Of a stretch of 23,953 nt of DNA, positions 7,831-23,953 are shown piece by piece. Under the pieces are notes generated by a model. That model was not told the origin of the DNA. It did no database searches and was given only the letters and a program-made list of their open reading frames with translations. A program made the translations under genes and the position numbers. How positions within the stretch are numbered: the first letter of the stretch is position 1; each line of letters starts with the position of its first letter. The DNA comes from a virus: positions 1 through 23,953 of IMG/VR virus record IMGVR_UViG_3300025823_000017; one strand, written 5' to 3'.

Positions 7831-9523
7831 ACCGCCGAAGCTCCACCCGTGGGCATGGGCCGTGCTGCGTGGCGAAGTGGTCGTCGGCGAGTTGACGCGG
7901 CTCGCCTGCGAGCGCTCACTGCGCGATCACCGCGAGGGCAAGCGACGCGGCCTCTGGTTCGATGCGAACGCCGCCGAGCACGTCCTGACGTTCTTCGCGT
8001 TCTTGCGCCACTCGAAGGGGCGCTGGGCGGGCGAAGTCTTCAAGCTCGAGCCGTGGCAAGAGTTCACGCTGTGGGAACTCTTCGGCTGGTATCGCGCCGG
8101 CGGCGGCCGTCGCTTCCGCGAAGCCTACTCGGAGGTAGCGCGGAAGAATGGCAAGACGACGTTCCTCGCCGGCGTCGGGCTCTACATGCTCGCGGGCGAC
8201 GGCGAGCCGGGAGCGGAAATCTACACGGCCGCGACGAAGAAGGACCAGGCGAAGATCATGCACTCCGAGGCCGTGCAGATGGTCCGGAAGTCGCCCGAGC
8301 TCTCCTCCCACCTCGAGACGTTTCGGAACAACATCTCGAGCTCACAGACGGCGTCGAAGTACGAGCCGCTCGGGGCCGACTCGAGAACGCTCGACGGTCT
8401 GAATATTCATTGCGCGCTGATCGACGAGCTGCACGCGCACCCGGACGGAGAGCTCTACAGCGTCCTCGACACGGCGACCGGGGCTCGGACGTCGCCGCTC
8501 ATCTTCGCGATCACGACGGCTGGTTCGGACGAGACGAGCTACTGCTACGCGCAGCGCGACTATGCGACGAGTGTCCTCCGCGGTGGCGTCGAGGATGACA
8601 CGCTCTTCGCGCTGATCTTCGCGCTCTCCGAGGATGACGACTGGCGCGATCCGGCGGTCTGGGTGAAGGCGAATCCAAGTCTCGGCGTCACGATCGATCC
8701 GGTCGAGCTGGCCGACCAGGTGCGCCAGGCGGAACAGTCGCCGCGGAAGCAGAACTCCATCCGCCGTCTGAGGCTCAACCAGTGGATGCGTGCTACGACG
8801 CGCTACCTCGATCTCGTGGCGTGGGATGCCTGCCGCGGTGACCTGATGCCGCTCGAGATCGAGCAGGCCCGGGTCGGAGACGTCTGCTACGGCGGGCTCG
8901 ACCTCTCGACAAATGACGATGTGACCGCATTCGTAACACTCTTCCCGCCGAGCTCCGATGCCGGCGACGCTGGCTATTGGGACGTGGTCTGTCGGTTCTG
9001 GATCCCGGAGGAGGGCCTCGCCGAGCGCGTCCGCACCCACAAGATCCCCTATGACGTCTGGGAGCGCGAAGGGTGGATCACGGTGACCGAGGGCAACGTG
9101 ATCGACTACCGGCGGGTCCGCGAGGACATCCAGGCGCTGCTGGAACCCTTTCGCACGGTCGAGATCGGGTATGACGGCTGGAACGCGACGGAGACGTCGC
9201 TCGAGCTCCAGGACGCCGGCTTCGAGATGGTGAAGGTCGCGCCGAACTACCTGAACATGTCGCCGGCGATGAAGCTCGTCGAGAACAGGGTTCTCTCGCA
9301 GCGTCTCCGTCACGGCGGGCACCCGATTCTGCGCTGGATGGCGGACAACCTCGAGGCCCGCGAGCACGACGGCGCCGTGCGTCCCGTCAAGCCGGCAAAC
9401 AAGATGAGTCACAAGAAGATCGACGGCATGGTCGCGCTGATCCTCGCGACCTCTCGGGCGATGGCCGGCGAATCAGAGCCTGCGGAGTCGATCTACGCAA
9501 AGCGTGGGTTCGTCTCGGTATGA
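7811..9523 (+). CDS. terL: Terminase large subunit, 570 aa
   Basis: A GTG start at 7811 with GGAGGG 4 nt upstream gives the usual TerL length. ATPase domain: Walker A-like ARKNGKT at 110-116, Walker B LIDE at 203-206, then a coupling region (FAITTAGSDE, ~232-241). Nuclease domain of the RNase H fold: GGLDLSTNDD at 361-370 (D364), IGYDGWNAT at 452-460 (D455) and KIDGMVA at 536-542 (D538). These are the three acidic positions expected for metal binding. It packages DNA into the procapsid through the portal and cuts it. It overlaps TerS upstream and the small membrane gene downstream (ATGA). Confidence 0.95.
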   Translation: MAKTGRKPPKLHPWAWAVLRGEVVVGELTRLACERSLRDHREGKRRGLWFDANAAEHVLTFFAFLRHSKGRWAGEVFKLEPWQEFTLWELFGWYRAGGGRRFREAYSEVARKNGKTTFLAGVGLYMLAGDGEPGAEIYTAATKKDQAKIMHSEAVQMVRKSPELSSHLETFRNNISSSQTASKYEPLGADSRTLDGLNIHCALIDELHAHPDGELYSVLDTATGARTSPLIFAITTAGSDETSYCYAQRDYATSVLRGGVEDDTLFALIFALSEDDDWRDPAVWVKANPSLGVTIDPVELADQVRQAEQSPRKQNSIRRLRLNQWMRATTRYLDLVAWDACRGDLMPLEIEQARVGDVCYGGLDLSTNDDVTAFVTLFPPSSDAGDAGYWDVVCRFWIPEEGLAERVRTHKIPYDVWEREGWITVTEGNVIDYRRVREDIQALLEPFRTVEIGYDGWNATETSLELQDAGFEMVKVAPNYLNMSPAMKLVENRVLSQRLRHGGHPILRWMADNLEAREHDGAVRPVKPANKMSHKKIDGMVALILATSRAMAGESEPAESIYAKRGFVSV

Positions 9524-16264: not shown

Positions 16265-17317
16265 ATGGCAGACCAGGGCTACGAGATCGGACTTGCGGTT
16301 GGGCTTCAGAACGACATCGACACGGTGAACGCAACGGTCTCCGCACTGTCGGGTGCGCTCGACGAGACGGACGGAATCGTGCTCGGCGACCGGGAATCTG
16401 GGGACTTCGCGAGCGGCATCACCGTGCCGAAGTTCGTCCGCGAAAACCGCGCAGTGGCCGATGTCTCCGGATCGTTCACGCCGCAGGCGAGTTCGTTCCT
16501 GCGCGTCGGAGCCGACGGGCTCGAGGTCACCTGGCAGGTCAAGGGCAACGGTGCCACCGCGACGCCGGCGGCCGGAGAGGCAAAGCCGGATGCCGGTATC
16601 GACGCGCTGCACGAGATGGCCGGCCTCGTCGGAGCGAACGGCACGGCTCCCGTGTACGACTACACGCCGCGCGTCTCTGCGACCTCGGGCGGCATCACGA
16701 AGTACGGCACCGTCAAGCTCTGGATCGCCGATCTCTCGTGGGTTCTGAAGTCCTGCACCATCCGGGACCTCCGATTCACGGTGCAGCCGTCGGGCATCGT
16801 CCTGGCGACTGCTCGCCTCGAGGTGGGATCCGTCGATGCGTTTGCCGACGGCGTGACGTTCCCGACGTTCGACTACGGGTCCCAGGCCACGCTGTCCGCT
16901 CAGACCGTCGAGAGCGTGACGACCAGCTGGGGATCGGCGCGCGGATGGGAGTCGCTCGAAATCTCGATCGCAAACGATCTGGGCACGGCGCAGGATTCCG
17001 CGAAGGCGGGCGGCGTGCGCGTCATCCAGAGCGGCCGCAGAATCAACGTCAGCGCCAGTATCTACGTCGACAGCGGCGACTCGGACTTCGAGTACCAGGA
17101 GCTGATCCGCGTCACGTCGCCGACCGGGGACCTGGGGTTCCAGCTCGGCGCTGCTGCCGGAGCCGCCGAAACGATCAACGCGATCAACTTCGAGGCGCGC
17201 AACGTGGAGCTCGTCGGGATGAAGCCCGCGCCCACCGGCTCGGTACTGGTGGCGGAGATCGAGGGGCACAGCACGGGCTTGACCGCCGGCAGCGAGGCGC
17301 TGTTCCGGTACAACTGA
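16265..17317 (+). CDS. Major tail tube protein, 350 aa
   Basis: The start is ATG 16265, with GGAGGAG a few nt upstream, a strong site as expected for an abundant protein. The N-terminal half is a beta-rich tail tube domain: EIGLAVGLQNDIDTVNATVS, then VPKFVRENRAVADVSGSFTP, FLRVGADGLEVTWQVKG and later FTVQPSGIVLATARLEV. The C-terminal part (GVRVIQSGRRINVSASIYVD, then FEYQELIRVTSPTGDLGFQL) continues the beta pattern. Length is in the usual range for siphophage tube proteins with an extra domain. The next gene begins 22 nt later, leaving no room for the usual chaperone genes. Confidence 0.75.
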   Translation: MADQGYEIGLAVGLQNDIDTVNATVSALSGALDETDGIVLGDRESGDFASGITVPKFVRENRAVADVSGSFTPQASSFLRVGADGLEVTWQVKGNGATATPAAGEAKPDAGIDALHEMAGLVGANGTAPVYDYTPRVSATSGGITKYGTVKLWIADLSWVLKSCTIRDLRFTVQPSGIVLATARLEVGSVDAFADGVTFPTFDYGSQATLSAQTVESVTTSWGSARGWESLEISIANDLGTAQDSAKAGGVRVIQSGRRINVSASIYVDSGDSDFEYQELIRVTSPTGDLGFQLGAAAGAAETINAINFEARNVELVGMKPAPTGSVLVAEIEGHSTGLTAGSEALFRYN

Positions 17318-17339: not shown

Positions 17340-19148
17340 ATGGCGCGCAAGTTCAGCGTCGAAACGACGATCCAGGCGAAGGACAAGGCCTCCCCGGTCA
17401 TCGCGAACGCTGTTCGCAGCGTCCGGCTGCTCACGTACGTCACCCGCCAGCTTTCCCAGGGCAACGTAGATGCGATTCCGCTGATCCAGCGGCTGGTCGC
17501 TGGCATTGGAAGCCTGCGCGTCGCGCTCGGTGTCGGGTTGCTCGGTGGCGCGGTCGCAGTCACCGCGGCGCTGGGGGCTCTATTCAGCAAGATTGGAGAT
17601 GGCATCAAGGCTTTCTCCGAGTCGGAACGAGCGATATCGAAGCTCGAGGCCGCGCTCCGGTCGACGGGTAGCTTCACGCGCGAGGCCTCCAACGACATCC
17701 AGGCCTACGCGGACGCGCTGCAGGCGGGTACTACGGCCACGCAGTCGCAGGTGCTGGAACTCGTCGCTCTCGCGAAGGGCTTCGGCGCCACGAACGAGCA
17801 GGCGAAGGATCTGGCGTCGGCGACGCTCGACTTCGCCCAGGGCGCGCAGCTGAACGTTACCGAGGCCGCGCGGCGCCTCGGCCGTGCGCTGCAGGGGTCC
17901 GCCGCCGACGTCGCGAACTTCGCGCCGGAGATCCGTCAGCTCACGGCCGAGCAGCTCCGGCTAGGAGGTGCGACCGACCTCATCGCCGAAAAGTTCCGCG
18001 GACAGGCAGCGGCGGCGCTCGGCACGTACCAGGGCGCGCTCGAGAACCTCGCGAACGCACAACGCCGACTGGAGGAGGTGCAGGGCGCGCTGTTCGTCGA
18101 CTCCGCTGCGCTGACCGAATCCATCAGCCTCCAGGCCAGGCTCACGGATCGGCTCAGCGGCGCGACTGAGAAATCCCGCATCTCATTCGACCGCCTGGCG
18201 ATCGGGTGGCAGAATCTGAAGCTCCTCGGCACCGGGCTGCAGCTGAAGCTCGTCGAGGCCGGGGACGCCGTCGTCGACATCTCGTCAAAGGTCAACGCGG
18301 CGCTGCGGTCGTGGCTTGGATTCAAGGTTGCCGTTGAGGCAGTCACGGATTCCACCGCCGGCGCCCGAGACGCCTTCCGGCGGACCGTGGCGGAGAGTGA
18401 AGACCTGACCCAGAACCTCGCGACGCTGACGTCCGTTCTCGGCGATGAGGCGGCGGCGCTCGATGTCCTATTCCGCGCGCACGAGCGCGAGCTGCAACTC
18501 ATCCAGGACCACGCTGCCGCCGCGGAGGTGCTGAGCCTCACGCTGCAGAAGCTCGGGCTGCGAACGCTCGACCAGGTCGAGCGGGCGCTTGTCGAGGCCA
18601 CCGCAGCTCAGGGACGTATCGAGCAGGCGTGGAGGAACGGCGAGATCGGTGCGGCAACGTATACGTCGGCGCTCGAGAAGCTCGGGCTCGAGCAGGAAGC
18701 GCTCCGTGCCGTGCTCGACGGGACTGCGGAATCGACCGACGCCTACAAACAGGAAGTTCTCGAGACGCGGGCCGAGCAGGAGCTTGCGCGCCGCGCGACC
18801 GACCAGATGGCGAAGTCCACCGATGGGCTCCGGCGGTCCAATGAGGCCGGCACGATCGCACTTCGCGCGCAGCGCGAGGAGGTGCGGCTCACGGTGGCGG
18901 AGTTCGATGCGCTGGCGCGTAGCCAGGGACGCGCCGCCGCGACGACTGCGGCTCTAAAGCAGGGTGCTGTGCTCGAGCAGGGAGGGACGCGAGTTAGCTT
19001 CGGCGGTCCCGGACGCGGAAGCCGGCTCGTCGATAGTACGCTCGGCAATCGTGGCGGTCTGTTCCCCGGAATCTCGGGCGCCGTCTACACGGTGAACGTT
19101 ACCGAGGACGAGATCACACAGGCGCTGCGCCGCACGGGAAGGATCTAG
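17340..19148 (+). CDS. Tape measure protein, 602 aa
   Basis: The start is ATG 17340. The chain is nearly all helical and rich in Ala, Glu, Arg and Leu, the hallmark of tape measures. A hydrophobic segment near residues 58-82 (VALGVGLLGGAVAVTAALGA) may help DNA entry. Long coiled-coil parts follow, including QAQLNVTEAARRLGRALQGS-type stretches. The end is Gly/Arg-rich and polar. Tape length sets tail length: at the commonly used ~0.15 nm per residue this would give about 90 nm. At 602 aa it is short for a siphophage. The gene lies directly between the tube gene and the distal tail gene. Confidence 0.75.
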   Translation: MARKFSVETTIQAKDKASPVIANAVRSVRLLTYVTRQLSQGNVDAIPLIQRLVAGIGSLRVALGVGLLGGAVAVTAALGALFSKIGDGIKAFSESERAISKLEAALRSTGSFTREASNDIQAYADALQAGTTATQSQVLELVALAKGFGATNEQAKDLASATLDFAQGAQLNVTEAARRLGRALQGSAADVANFAPEIRQLTAEQLRLGGATDLIAEKFRGQAAAALGTYQGALENLANAQRRLEEVQGALFVDSAALTESISLQARLTDRLSGATEKSRISFDRLAIGWQNLKLLGTGLQLKLVEAGDAVVDISSKVNAALRSWLGFKVAVEAVTDSTAGARDAFRRTVAESEDLTQNLATLTSVLGDEAAALDVLFRAHERELQLIQDHAAAAEVLSLTLQKLGLRTLDQVERALVEATAAQGRIEQAWRNGEIGAATYTSALEKLGLEQEALRAVLDGTAESTDAYKQEVLETRAEQELARRATDQMAKSTDGLRRSNEAGTIALRAQREEVRLTVAEFDALARSQGRAAATTAALKQGAVLEQGGTRVSFGGPGRGSRLVDSTLGNRGGLFPGISGAVYTVNVTEDEITQALRRTGRI

Positions 19149-19149
19149 C

Positions 19150-20562
19150 GTGTCCTTCCTGGCAAACGCGTGGACGCAGTACCAGAACCCGCGCTTCTGC
19201 GTCGATCACCTGCTCCGCGATGAGGGCGTGGGGAGCCTGTCGGGCTGGACTGCCGCCACCGGGTATCCGCTCGACCGCATGCTCGACCAGCAGCAGCAAC
19301 TCGTCAGCCGAGCAAACGCAGCGGCGGCGACTACCCTGAAGTGGACACGGGCCATCCATCCGACGGTGACACATCGAATCCCGGTCGATCGGGTCGTGGT
19401 GCTGGGGTCGAACTTCCACGGCAACTACGTGCGCGTGCACATCGAGGATTCGCTTGACGACGCCTCCTACGCCGCGGTGGCCCAGGCGGACCCTTCTGCC
19501 GCGCCCGAGGACGCCGTGTCGTGGGGCGACGCGGTCTATCACTGCGCTCCGCCAGACATGATCGACTGGCACCTGTACTACGCCGGCGGAGCGCCGAACT
19601 ATCGCTACCTGAAGCTCTTTATCGAGGCGGGGACGGCGGGCTACACCGCGCCGGAGATTTCGGAGCTCTGGCTCACACGCACGCTGCAGCCGTACGCGGG
19701 TCCGGCGCACCAGTGGACTAACGGCGTCATTCCGAACGTCAGTTCTAGCGAGACGCGCTCAGGATATGTGACGACCACGAAACACGGTGCGGAACGCGCT
19801 CGGTACAGCCTCGCCTGGGATCATCTGCCGGTAGGGCAGCCTCCTGGCGTCACGAATCGCCGCAGCGATCTCGAGCTGCTCCGCTACGTGCACCGGAAAG
19901 CTGGCATTCGCGAGAATACCTTGCTCTACCAGCACCCCGATACCGGCGGCCCGACGGTGATCGACGACTTCGTCTCGGCGTCGGGTGCATCGACTGTGAA
20001 TTGCGGTCTGACGGTGCAGTCGAGTGTCGGTCCGGGTGGAAAGGATGTGGTGCGCTGCACTGCCTCCGCGGCAGGGGCTTGCTCGTTCTACCGGACCGGT
20101 GAGCCGACAGTCGACCTGCGTGATTCGATCCTCGAGGTCTGGGTTCGCGCTCCACTCGCGTCGATGCCGGACTTCAAGGCGTCGCTCAAGATCAGTCTGT
20201 TGTCTGGTGCTTCTCCGTACGTTGGCAGCACCACCTACAACCTGGGAGACGTTGTCGACGTCGAGGAGCTCGACGATGAGTGGTACCGCATCGCGTGGGA
20301 TCCGGAGACGTGGACGGATACGACGTTCATCACCGGAAACGACAGGCCCGCGGACCTCTCGCAAGTGACCTCCGTCGTCTATCACTGGATCTCAAGCGCC
20401 TCTCTCTACTACATCGAATGGGCCAAGATGATCCAGCGTCCGAAGCGCACCCGCCCCGTCGTGTGCCACCTCACCGAGTACACCGAGACGCAGACTGGCC
20501 GCATGCCGGCCGGGGTGCTGCTGTACGACGTCCAGATGCAGCTCGAAGAGGTCCTGACGTAA
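19150..20562 (+). CDS. Distal-tail-like protein with inserted carbohydrate-binding-like module, 470 aa
   Basis: GTG 19150 has AAGGA about 7 nt upstream. The N-terminal part (VVVLGSNFHGNYVRVHIEDS, later YRYLKLFIEAGTAGYTAPEI) reads like a galactose-binding-type beta sandwich. The C-terminal part (LLYQHPDTGGPTV, then RTRPVVCHLTEYTETQTGRM and YDVQMQLEEVL) fits distal-tail proteins. Residues ~275-430 between those parts look like an extra beta-rich, carbohydrate-binding-like module, with the strand landmark DLSQVTSVVYHW near 402-413. It may help attach to the host surface. The DIT role is inferred from position after the tape measure. Confidence 0.55.
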   Translation: MSFLANAWTQYQNPRFCVDHLLRDEGVGSLSGWTAATGYPLDRMLDQQQQLVSRANAAAATTLKWTRAIHPTVTHRIPVDRVVVLGSNFHGNYVRVHIEDSLDDASYAAVAQADPSAAPEDAVSWGDAVYHCAPPDMIDWHLYYAGGAPNYRYLKLFIEAGTAGYTAPEISELWLTRTLQPYAGPAHQWTNGVIPNVSSSETRSGYVTTTKHGAERARYSLAWDHLPVGQPPGVTNRRSDLELLRYVHRKAGIRENTLLYQHPDTGGPTVIDDFVSASGASTVNCGLTVQSSVGPGGKDVVRCTASAAGACSFYRTGEPTVDLRDSILEVWVRAPLASMPDFKASLKISLLSGASPYVGSTTYNLGDVVDVEELDDEWYRIAWDPETWTDTTFITGNDRPADLSQVTSVVYHWISSASLYYIEWAKMIQRPKRTRPVVCHLTEYTETQTGRMPAGVLLYDVQMQLEEVLT

Positions 20563-20564
20563 CG

Positions 20565-23500
20565 GTGCTGACGCTTACCGGACGACAGACGCGACTGATC
20601 GAAGGGGCCCCGCATCGGCTCGTGAACCTCTTCGTCCTGACCACGTACAGCGATCACGCTGCTACGCCGAAGACGGTCGAGGCCACGTACTACTGGGCGG
20701 AATCATACTTTGAGTATGACTGGGAGAACAGCGGGACGCTGCGCCAGTTCATGCCCTACGTGCAGCAGTCCGATCCGCAGCTAACGGAGAGCATGCCGCA
20801 CCTGCCGAGCGGTGCGAGCATCGAGGGCGAGCTCGTAAAGTCCTATCGGCTCGTGCTCTCGAACGTCGTCCAGGATGACGGTACGCGTCTGATGCAGACG
20901 CTCGACGGCGTCAACCTCGAGTTTGCTGACCTGGTCGTCGCCGAGCTCTTCCTGGATCCGGCGGTACCGGGTGGCGAAGATCCCGCGTCCCTCACCGGCG
21001 ACGAGCACATCGTCCTCGGCCGGTACCAGCTGTCGCAGGTGCTCGACGTCACCGAGGACTCGATTACGATCTCGTTCGATACGGAGCGAATCCAGGGCTT
21101 GCTTCCGGCTCCAGTCGTGGGCCCCGACATGTCTCCGCGGGACCTCGGGAAGCGCCCTCCGGTCCCGTACGGAGAGGTAGACAAGGTTCCGTGTCTCGCC
21201 GTGCAGGTCGGTGAGAAAACCACCCTTGCTCAGCCGCTCTCGACGACGGCTACGCAGCTCACAGTGTCGGATGCAACCGGATTCCCGGCGGCCGGTCTGG
21301 TGTACGTCGGCGGCGAGGCGATCCAGTACGCCGGCGCCAGCGCCAACACGCTGCTCAATCTGACACGCGACCCGATGCTGACGGCAGATCACAAGCAGGG
21401 CGAGCTCGTCGTGTTCATACCGCTCGAGGTCGTCTACGCGGTGGGTACGGGTGGATCCGTTACCGCAGTGCGAGACATCTGGATGCGGAGCCCGGAGACG
21501 GGCGAAGTCTTCAAGCTCAACAACACGGGTACGTTCCTGTCGAGCAATACGACCGTCATCGCCGGCGAGGATCTGGCGACCGTCTCGTGGTCGCAGACGA
21601 CCTGGCGCGCGCTGCTCGACGAGATCATCAGCAATGCGCGGGTCACGGCTCAGCCATCGTTCGAGGACCCGACATCTCCACCGACGACGGTCACCGCGAG
21701 CCAGCAGTACGATACGAACAATCGTAGGGTGAACAATGGCGACGAAGGCTGGTCCTCACCGGGGAAAGCTGATGGCAACTGGGACGAGACCAATCGCGTC
21801 TTCACGTACGACAGCACGAAGACCGACCGAAAGCTCGTCTGCGGGAACGATAGTCTGCCGACCAACGTCGTTGGCGTCCGGGCACGATTGCAAGTCTCGT
21901 TCACGATCGACGTATGGGCCGGCGGAGTCACGACAGTCGAGGTACGCGCAGCGTCTAAACGGAAGACCCAGACCGCAGATTCGCCGCTCTGGGGGACGCC
22001 TGGAATCATCGCTTCGGTCGTATCGGGTACCGGAGCCTATTCATTCGCGGGCGCCTGGCAGACTGCCAGCGGAAGCACCAGCGATAGCGAGACTGATGAG
22101 CTCTCCGATTGGGAACTCGAAGTCTTCTTTCGGGTCGATGGCGGAGGCGGTGCCGGGCAATTCCAAGCAACGGTCACGAACCTGTCGATTGAGTACGAGT
22201 ACATCTCCGCAGGACAACTGCTCGACCTCTTGAACCCCGTCGAGATTCGAGCATTCGCCGGCGGCGCGGGCGTCGAGCTCTTCGCGGACGTGGACGGTCC
22301 GATCTCACCCCCGACGGTCTGGGAGCTCGGGTACGACTTCCCCGATGAGGGCTGGACGAATGTCGATTCTGTCGATGTCGCAGTGACCGACGGCCGGCGC
22401 TTCTACAACAGTACGGCGTGGACGGAGCGGTTCTCTCTCGATTCCGATGCCAGTAACTGGTCGGCAGTTAGCGACGGATACATTGCGCTCTCAGACGAGG
22501 ATAGCCCCGCGCCGTCTGCGAACCCTTCGCTGCAGTTCGACATCACGAACCTAGTCGCATACCTAACGCTCCGCGGAGATCACGCAAACTGGTCTGGCGC
22601 CTACGTGACCAGCGGATTCAGCTATCTGGAGTTTAATCCGCCGGCGAGCGCGACGACATTCACGAGCCGCGCGACGCTCAGTGCGACGGAGAACTGGTCC
22701 GCGATGCGGTTTCGCGTATTCCTGCTCCTTCAGCCGGTCGCGATGTACGATGAGCTCTTCATTAGGTTCTACGATGGAACGGACTACGAGGAGTTCAAGA
22801 TAGTTCCATTCGTCAACTTCCAAACTGACGCGATGGTTCTCTATCTGAACCTAGACCTGTTCGATCCTTCATCCGACACGTACTACAACGCGACGTCAGG
22901 TACTCCAGACATGTCGCAGGTGTCGTCAATAGAGTTCGGTCTGACGCGGAATGCTACGGCCGGAACAGCGTACGGACTGAATCTTGGAGGCGACATCGAG
23001 CTTCGTCGATACGCTGGCGGATCGGTAGCAGCAGCGAAGACGTTCAGCAGCGAAGACTGGAGCGCACGGAAGTATCTCCGGTTCAAGGTCTTCATACCGA
23101 ATGACAACAGCGGCGCGCTGATTTCGCATCTGCGACTTCTGATCGGAGACGCGTCCGGCGAATACGTGATCTACCAATGGGCCGTCGGAGTAGATTTCGA
23201 CCTCGGGGCGGAGTCTACGCTGCTCTGCGAGCTCGGCCACCTCGCATTCCCTCAAGCGCATTTGTTCTCTTTTTCGATTGGATACGATCTCTCGATCGTC
23301 GTCAAGCTCCAATTCACAGCGGTCTATGGGTCCGACGCATCTGCCTCGAGCGTTGCAAACACGGAGCTGTACTTCTCAGACGTAGAGACGCTTGATTCCA
23401 TCCCGGCAGCGGGATTCCACGCCGCCGTCACGCCCGGATCGACGACTGATCTCGAGAGCGTCAATGATCGCTATGAGGTCGATTTCCTCCTGCGCGGATC

Positions 23501-23953
23501 TTCAGGAGACATCGAGATTCTCATCAGCGAGGACACTCCGTCCCCGATCACGGACGACCCTACGAACTACAAGAAGCTAACGATTGCCCTAGCGGACTTC
23601 GAGTCCGAGAGCAGAACGACGGCCGTCCTGAGCTCACAGGACTTCGGAACGCCCGCGGACATGTCCGACGTGCAGAACTTGCAGGTCAGGATAATCAGCC
23701 CGAACAGCGCGGATGTGGAAATCGAACTCTACTCGCTCAAGAAGACGGACGACGTCGCCGCCTATAAGGCTGCGTCAGGCGCACTCCTCGAGCATCCAGC
23801 CGACGTCGTTCGCCACATCCTCGATAAGCGCCTCGGGATCACCGACCTTGAAGCCTCATCGTGGTCGGATGCGGAGACGAATCTCGGAAGCAACGAAGTG
23901 TCGGCGCTGCTCGAGGAGCTCGGCGGTAGCTTCTACGAGATCCTGGGGAGGCT
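20565..23953 (+). CDS. Tail hub-like protein with multiple beta-rich insertions (3' end outside window)
   Basis: The GTG at 20565 begins a frame that stays open to the right edge (at least 1129 residues). There is no strong ribosome site, and it starts 2 nt after the previous stop. The core hub pattern is at ~1-380 (TYSDHAATPKTVEATYYWAE, FADLVVAELFLDP, QLTVSDATGFPAAGLVYVGG), near ~570 (GVELFADVDGP) and from ~1062 (AYKAASGALLEHPADVVRHI). The latter resembles central tail-hub proteins. At least two inserted regions (~380-545 and ~620-1060) are beta-rich, with landmarks DMSQVSSIEFGL (~782) and DMSDVQNLQVRI (~1032). They have lower GC than the rest. These are likely host-surface binding modules. 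Confidence 0.6.
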   Translation, partial: MLTLTGRQTRLIEGAPHRLVNLFVLTTYSDHAATPKTVEATYYWAESYFEYDWENSGTLRQFMPYVQQSDPQLTESMPHLPSGASIEGELVKSYRLVLSNVVQDDGTRLMQTLDGVNLEFADLVVAELFLDPAVPGGEDPASLTGDEHIVLGRYQLSQVLDVTEDSITISFDTERIQGLLPAPVVGPDMSPRDLGKRPPVPYGEVDKVPCLAVQVGEKTTLAQPLSTTATQLTVSDATGFPAAGLVYVGGEAIQYAGASANTLLNLTRDPMLTADHKQGELVVFIPLEVVYAVGTGGSVTAVRDIWMRSPETGEVFKLNNTGTFLSSNTTVIAGEDLATVSWSQTTWRALLDEIISNARVTAQPSFEDPTSPPTTVTASQQYDTNNRRVNNGDEGWSSPGKADGNWDETNRVFTYDSTKTDRKLVCGNDSLPTNVVGVRARLQVSFTIDVWAGGVTTVEVRAASKRKTQTADSPLWGTPGIIASVVSGTGAYSFAGAWQTASGSTSDSETDELSDWELEVFFRVDGGGGAGQFQATVTNLSIEYEYISAGQLLDLLNPVEIRAFAGGAGVELFADVDGPISPPTVWELGYDFPDEGWTNVDSVDVAVTDGRRFYNSTAWTERFSLDSDASNWSAVSDGYIALSDEDSPAPSANPSLQFDITNLVAYLTLRGDHANWSGAYVTSGFSYLEFNPPASATTFTSRATLSATENWSAMRFRVFLLLQPVAMYDELFIRFYDGTDYEEFKIVPFVNFQTDAMVLYLNLDLFDPSSDTYYNATSGTPDMSQVSSIEFGLTRNATAGTAYGLNLGGDIELRRYAGGSVAAAKTFSSEDWSARKYLRFKVFIPNDNSGALISHLRLLIGDASGEYVIYQWAVGVDFDLGAESTLLCELGHLAFPQAHLFSFSIGYDLSIVVKLQFTAVYGSDASASSVANTELYFSDVETLDSIPAAGFHAAVTPGSTTDLESVNDRYEVDFLLRGSSGDIEILISEDTPSPITDDPTNYKKLTIALADFESESRTTAVLSSQDFGTPADMSDVQNLQVRIISPNSADVEIELYSLKKTDDVAAYKAASGALLEHPADVVRHILDKRLGITDLEASSWSDAETNLGSNEVSALLEELGGSFYEILGR

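Follow-up and report, generated by a model that had tools for sequence, protein, structure and literature searches.

Two adjacent tail genes of an uncultured virus raise the question of whether the beta-rich segments within them are related modules, how such segments came to lie in both genes, and what they might do there. The placing of beta-sheet domains in loops of conserved tail proteins is a known phage route to the binding of surfaces, usually of sugars, and the resulting evolved Dit and evolved Tal devices are well described in Gram-positive siphophages. The stretch analyzed here (the window) is a virus fragment of 23,953 bases, and an original prediction made from its sequence held that one module family had been copied or swapped between the two genes, probably for the binding of host glycans. 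The reading favored below, with some reserve, is an adhesion device of the "evolved Dit / evolved Tal" type in a divergent siphophage lineage, probably glycan-binding. The features discussed are collected in the table.

Table. Tail features of the window, with hub residues numbered from nucleotide 20559 though the likely start codon is at 20565
Feature	Position (nt)	Strand	Remark
Tail-tube-like gene	16265-17317		Assigned from position and size
Tape-measure-like (TMP-like) ORF	17340-19148		Assigned from position and size
Dit-like protein, 470 aa	19150..20562	+	ORF, between tape measure and hub
Inserted predicted beta-sandwich module, Dit-like residues ~270-436	19957..20457	+	Missing in L150 and L206 homologues
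Motif DLSQVTSVVYHW, Dit-like residue 402	20353..20388	+	Turn and next-to-last strand
Re-entry to Dit-like core, last strands (...YDVQMQLEEVLT)	20458..20559	+	Match to L206
Tail hub (Tal-like), cut by window end	20565..23951	+	Likely start codon GTG at 20565
Small widespread beta domain, hub residues ~219-284 (TTLAQPLSTTATQLTVSDATGFPAAGLVYVGGEAIQYAG...)	21213..21410	+	
M1, first hub insertion site, residues ~365-558	21651..22233	+	
M2, hub residues ~583-825, DMSQV at 784	22305..23033	+	
Motif DMSQVSSIEFGL, hub residue 784	22908..22943	+	
M3, hub residues ~826-948, DLSIV at 910	23034..23402	+	Aligns to M2
Fourth, weaker motif DLSIVVKLQFTA, hub residue 910	23286		
M4, hub residues ~949-1066, DMSDV at 1034	23403..23756	+	
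Motif DMSDVQNLQVRI, hub residue 1034	23658..23693	+	
Return to hub core (...LLEHPADVVRHILDKRLG...)	23757..23951	+	Match to L206 ALIERPDHVIKHILIALLG

The tail genes and their relatives

The head genes of the window are of the HK97 type, with strong PHROG matches for the terminase, portal, protease and capsid protein. Unlike these, the tail genes are divergent, and neither the tail-tube-like nor the tape-measure-like gene returned a PHROG match. In the ORF list, the Dit-like gene lies between the TMP-like gene and the hub, which is the position of an evolved Dit between tape measure and Tal; the order in the prophage locus L206 is identical. The name "Dit" is thus one of synteny and gene order, not of a named family. 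Residues 22-217 of the protein match phrog_8610, a family of unknown function (E 3e-6), apart from which the core matched no family, and positions 19150-19700 gave no supporting Pfam match. Matches of this protein to nitrite reductase and lectins were at chance level and were dismissed.

For comparison, 160 related loci were fetched via capsid-protein alignment and then searched for tail genes. The tail block recurs in one of these loci, L150, where the tube protein is 48% identical to that of the window and the hub, about 1,157 residues long, is 31% identical (E 8e-34 for window hub residues 1-366). A profile built from the window and L150 hubs found prophage hubs elsewhere, including L200/L206; in L206, the Dit-like product measures 247 residues and the hub 800. 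The capsid relatives Chymera and L003 were ruled out as tail comparators because their tail genes are unrelated. Scans of viral contig proteins with the Dit-like protein, the hub and parts of both returned no relatives, and neither did a genome contig scan with the hub. Similarly, tblastn of both proteins against phages gave no matches at 0.01, and with E up to 10 plausible matches were confined to the small hub domain (residues 215-308).

The C-terminal piece of the hub aligns with the hub core of L206 (ALIERPDHVIKHILIALLG; z 8.0), in which the next domain is PF13550, Phage-tail_3 (E 1.4e-8). By this homology, the hub core of the window is classed as gp27-like / Phage-tail_3 type, with the window predicted to end before the PF13550 region; in the hub of L210, PF13550 scores below that family's cut-off. 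The small beta domain nearer the start of the hub matches phrog_4406 as well as virion proteins of cyanophages and Pelagibacter phages, and among 294 genomes of L026's bacterial phylum, 73 also have it in long proteins. The hub gene (21499-21518) also shares an exact 20-base match with the beginning of the terminase gene (8028-8047; E 4.5e-4).

Segments inserted into both proteins

The original prediction described each motif as lying within a segment that interrupts the tail core. This proved right for both genes, as relatives either lack the segments or carry different ones. Among the Dit-like homologues, those of L150 (266 aa) and L206 (247 aa) both lack residues ~270-436. On either side of this module of about 165 aa, the core can be followed: the N-terminal part of the protein aligns with the L206 gene in the same position (z 8.5), and its last strand, YDVQMQLEEVL, aligns with YDLQLEMLEVL of L206 (z 4.3, p 0.004). 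These alignments suggest that the insert occupies a hairpin near the C-terminal strands.

In the hubs, the site just before "LIE-PADV-RH" varies. Modules occupy it in the window and in L150; SKSGTV-type repeats, together with a segment of another kind, take their place in L206, L207 and L211; and it is empty in the prophage L210, whose hub, at 580 aa, lacks both hub inserts. Repeats at this site, such as VxDxIxVxDGI and SKSGTVTKTG, belong to the hubs at 6746-9148 in L206, 4914-7469 in L207 and 533-3004 in L211. The L150 hub has counterparts of M2 (z 3.8) and of M4 (z 4.2), and no counterpart of M3. Judged by these variable inserts of the relatives, the modules are inserted within the structural domain of the hub, as in evolved Tals. 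The upstream M1 position is occupied by a different segment in L150, L206, L207 and L211, with no sequence similarity among the M1-site segments tested. The idea that M1 is one more copy of the module was rejected, since M1 has neither the motif nor any similarity.

Structure models were prepared with AlphaFold2 for the whole Dit-like protein and for hub residues 676-1070, each from a two-row alignment. Confidence was low, with mean pLDDT values of 34 (Dit-like) and 40 (hub), best blocks of 50-62, and 20-37 in the Dit-like core, where the belt/ring fold of a Dit would be expected. In the Dit module (pLDDT mostly 46-60), strands were predicted at residues 326-333, 344-352, 359-364, 370-375, 378-383, 406-415 and 421-429. 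Those of M2 (pLDDT 35-62) lie at 717-724, 732-739, 742-749, 759-768, 790-796 and 812-819, and those of M4 at 971-980, 984-990, 1005-1010, 1040-1046 and 1051-1060. A full jelly roll would have more strands than were predicted for either M3 or M4, and the model of M3 is unreliable (pLDDT ~30). The predicted strand order agrees among the Dit module, M2 and M4 (block pLDDT at most 62), and the Dit and hub modules probably share a fold class.

Comparison of the models with known structures leaned toward sugar-binding folds for one of the two proteins. With Foldseek against the PDB, the best matches of the low-confidence Dit model were CBM27, CBM22, CBM27 and CBM28, which at E 2e-3 to 7e-3 are only suggestive; for the hub model, generic viral jelly rolls outranked CBMs, with CBM28 and other CBMs lower. 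Neither model had a PDB match reaching 1e-3, and the BFVD gave poor, long alignments only. A profile search for carbohydrate-binding families had been proposed with the original prediction; in Pfam, no domain of any kind, and no carbohydrate-binding family, matched any module. A PDB sequence search of the modules gave no significant match, and no ligand-site residues could be identified in them. Glycan binding by the modules is plausible by analogy with evolved Dits, and the weak Foldseek matches give no more than a hint of it. An unlikely alternative is that the inserts are not adhesins and serve instead as structural spacers or for the docking of other baseplate proteins; Dit loop insertions can indeed anchor receptor-binding proteins, as in the "arm and hand" of p2 and in 80alpha (PMC7291167), but the size of the inserts and their predicted compact beta-sandwiches resemble CBM insertions, and the Foldseek results for the Dit module lean to CBMs.

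A shared motif and the relation between the modules

The three motif copies that first drew attention are present at Dit-like residue 402 and hub residues 784 and 1034, and the weaker copy in M3 makes a fourth. When the two proteins were shuffled, D[LM]S[DQ]V was expected 0.011 times against three seen (0 of 20000 shuffles reached three) and D[LM]S.V 0.094 times against four seen, values that overstate significance because the motif was picked after the sequence had been seen. For the same reason, a leave-one-out test was run, in which a 16-residue block from three copies was used to find the fourth. The left-out copy was the top-scoring place in its protein in every case; the Dit-like copy ranked 1 of 455 (whole-protein p 0.003), and the weakest copy, at hub 910, reached a whole-protein p of 0.28. 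When the DxSxV letters were left out, the motif strand alone gave marginal values (p 0.01-0.03 per site), and block scans with the first and last module strands showed nothing consistent. By these scans, nearly all of the sequence similarity between the modules appears to lie in the motif block.

The place of the motif in the predicted folds agrees among three of the modules. In the low-confidence models of the Dit module, M2 and M4, [LM]S[QD] forms a three-residue helical turn (HHH) directly before the next-to-last strand, with turn and strand at 403-405 and 406-415 in the Dit-like protein and at 785-787 and 790-796, then 1035-1037 and 1040-1046, in the hub. The original prediction would have been undermined by a motif in unrelated positions of unrelated folds; instead, the motif falls at the same relative position in similar series of predicted strands.

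Such a turn may partly be a property of the fold, as a D-L-S turn followed by a strand (DLSxxxxLxF-type) recurs in unrelated, galactose-binding-like CIA30 proteins, in 4 of the 17 regions examined (DLSEYDGLRVRVL, DLSDYTGVRFRAR, DLSAYSGVSFEAR and DLSHLEALECVFE). On this basis, it is possible, though doubtful, that the motif is convergent, i.e., a helix-capping D-[LM]-S turn common before strands in galactose-binding-like and CBM jelly rolls, and that the modules have no special relation to one another. The M4 counterpart in L150 reads DATAV at the motif place, which fits convergence and indicates that the motif is loosely kept. Against it stand the four motifs in two adjacent proteins, the in-register alignment of M2 with M3, and the scarcity of D[LM]S in CBM_4_9 regions (1 of 27).

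Within the hub, M2 (702-825) and M3 (826-948) align weakly (z 3.0, p 0.013) and, unforced, in register, pairing ENWSA with EDWSA and DMSQV with DLSIV, which suggests an old tandem duplication. Between the proteins, no alignment of the Dit module with any hub module rose above shuffles, and BLASTP of the two proteins found no similarity beyond the motif. Whole-module similarity of the kind expected from one family shared by Dit and hub was thus absent, with only the motif block scoring, and membership of one family is unproven. The claim of related modules in two genes is accordingly supported for the inserted beta-rich segments and the shared motif position, and not for copying or swapping. 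Transfer of one module, by copying or swapping, between the Dit-like and hub genes of this lineage is improbable, even though the two genes adjoin, the motif block ranks first in the leave-one-out scans, and tandem M2 and M3 resemble an old duplication: the Dit module has no significant alignment to any hub module, outside the DxSxV letters, similarity is marginal, and in the other strands nil, and L150 has counterparts of M2 and M4 yet lacks the Dit module. The last observation means that the hub modules predate the Dit module or are independent of it. Rather than copying from one gene to the other, the preferred explanation is that the modules were acquired separately, out of a pool of related jelly rolls. 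More tentatively, the modules could represent an undescribed family of small jelly-roll adhesion modules, of which neither Pfam nor PDB sequences nor 50,697 phage records contain a detectable relative; its members would be shared out between the Dit-like protein and the Phage-tail_3 hub of a divergent siphophage lineage, and copies would be gained and lost between relatives.

Comparison with known adhesion devices

There is precedent for CBMs inserted both in the galectin loops of Dit and in the gp27-like domain of Tal (PMC7291167, PMC9437275), and evolved Dit and evolved Tal have both been reported for streptococcal pac phages (PMC7291167; see also PMC9437275, PMC9692632). Like the evolved Dits of Lactobacillus phage J-1 and of lactococcal and streptococcal siphophages, the Dit-like protein would carry a compact beta-rich module in a loop and is encoded downstream of the tape measure gene, and homologues without the module exist. 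It differs from them in several respects: the literature CBM measures ~200-250 aa and sits in a peripheral galectin domain, whereas the insert of the window has ~165 aa and, by sequence, sits in a C-terminal hairpin; in addition, the core is of a different lineage, the protein has a different N-terminal domain, and sequence detects no CBM family. Like the evolved Tals of streptococcal pac phages, with CBMs in their gp27-like N-terminal domain, the hub has several modules within its structural part. Unlike them, it is of the Phage-tail_3 type, with three tandem modules at one site and a segment at a second, and other members of its family carry repeats or nothing at the module site. The modules also resemble the jelly rolls of CBM22, CBM27, CBM28 and CIA30-like proteins, which gave the best, if weak, Foldseek matches, in their predicted beta-sandwich with a D[LM]S turn and strand, although they have no sequence match to these and no identified ligand residues.

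In the favored adhesion device, one of the two siphophage genes would encode a Dit-like protein and the other a Tal-like tail hub of the gp27 / Phage-tail_3 type, and both products would bear beta-sandwich modules of one fold class in their surface loops. The Dit-like protein would carry one module, in the hairpin close to its C-terminus; the hub would carry three or more in tandem directly before "LIE-PADV-RH", with the unrelated M1 further upstream. The modules would most likely stick out from the tail tip and aid adhesion to the cell envelope, the ligand probably being glycans, as with the CBM insertions of evolved Dits and Tals.

If this reading holds, the evolved Dit/Tal principle, drawn mainly from phages of Gram-positive dairy bacteria, would also apply to an uncultured lineage, one in which hardly any relatives of the tail proteins are annotated. 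The module borders and the module-less controls given here can now be used for testing whether the inserts set host binding.
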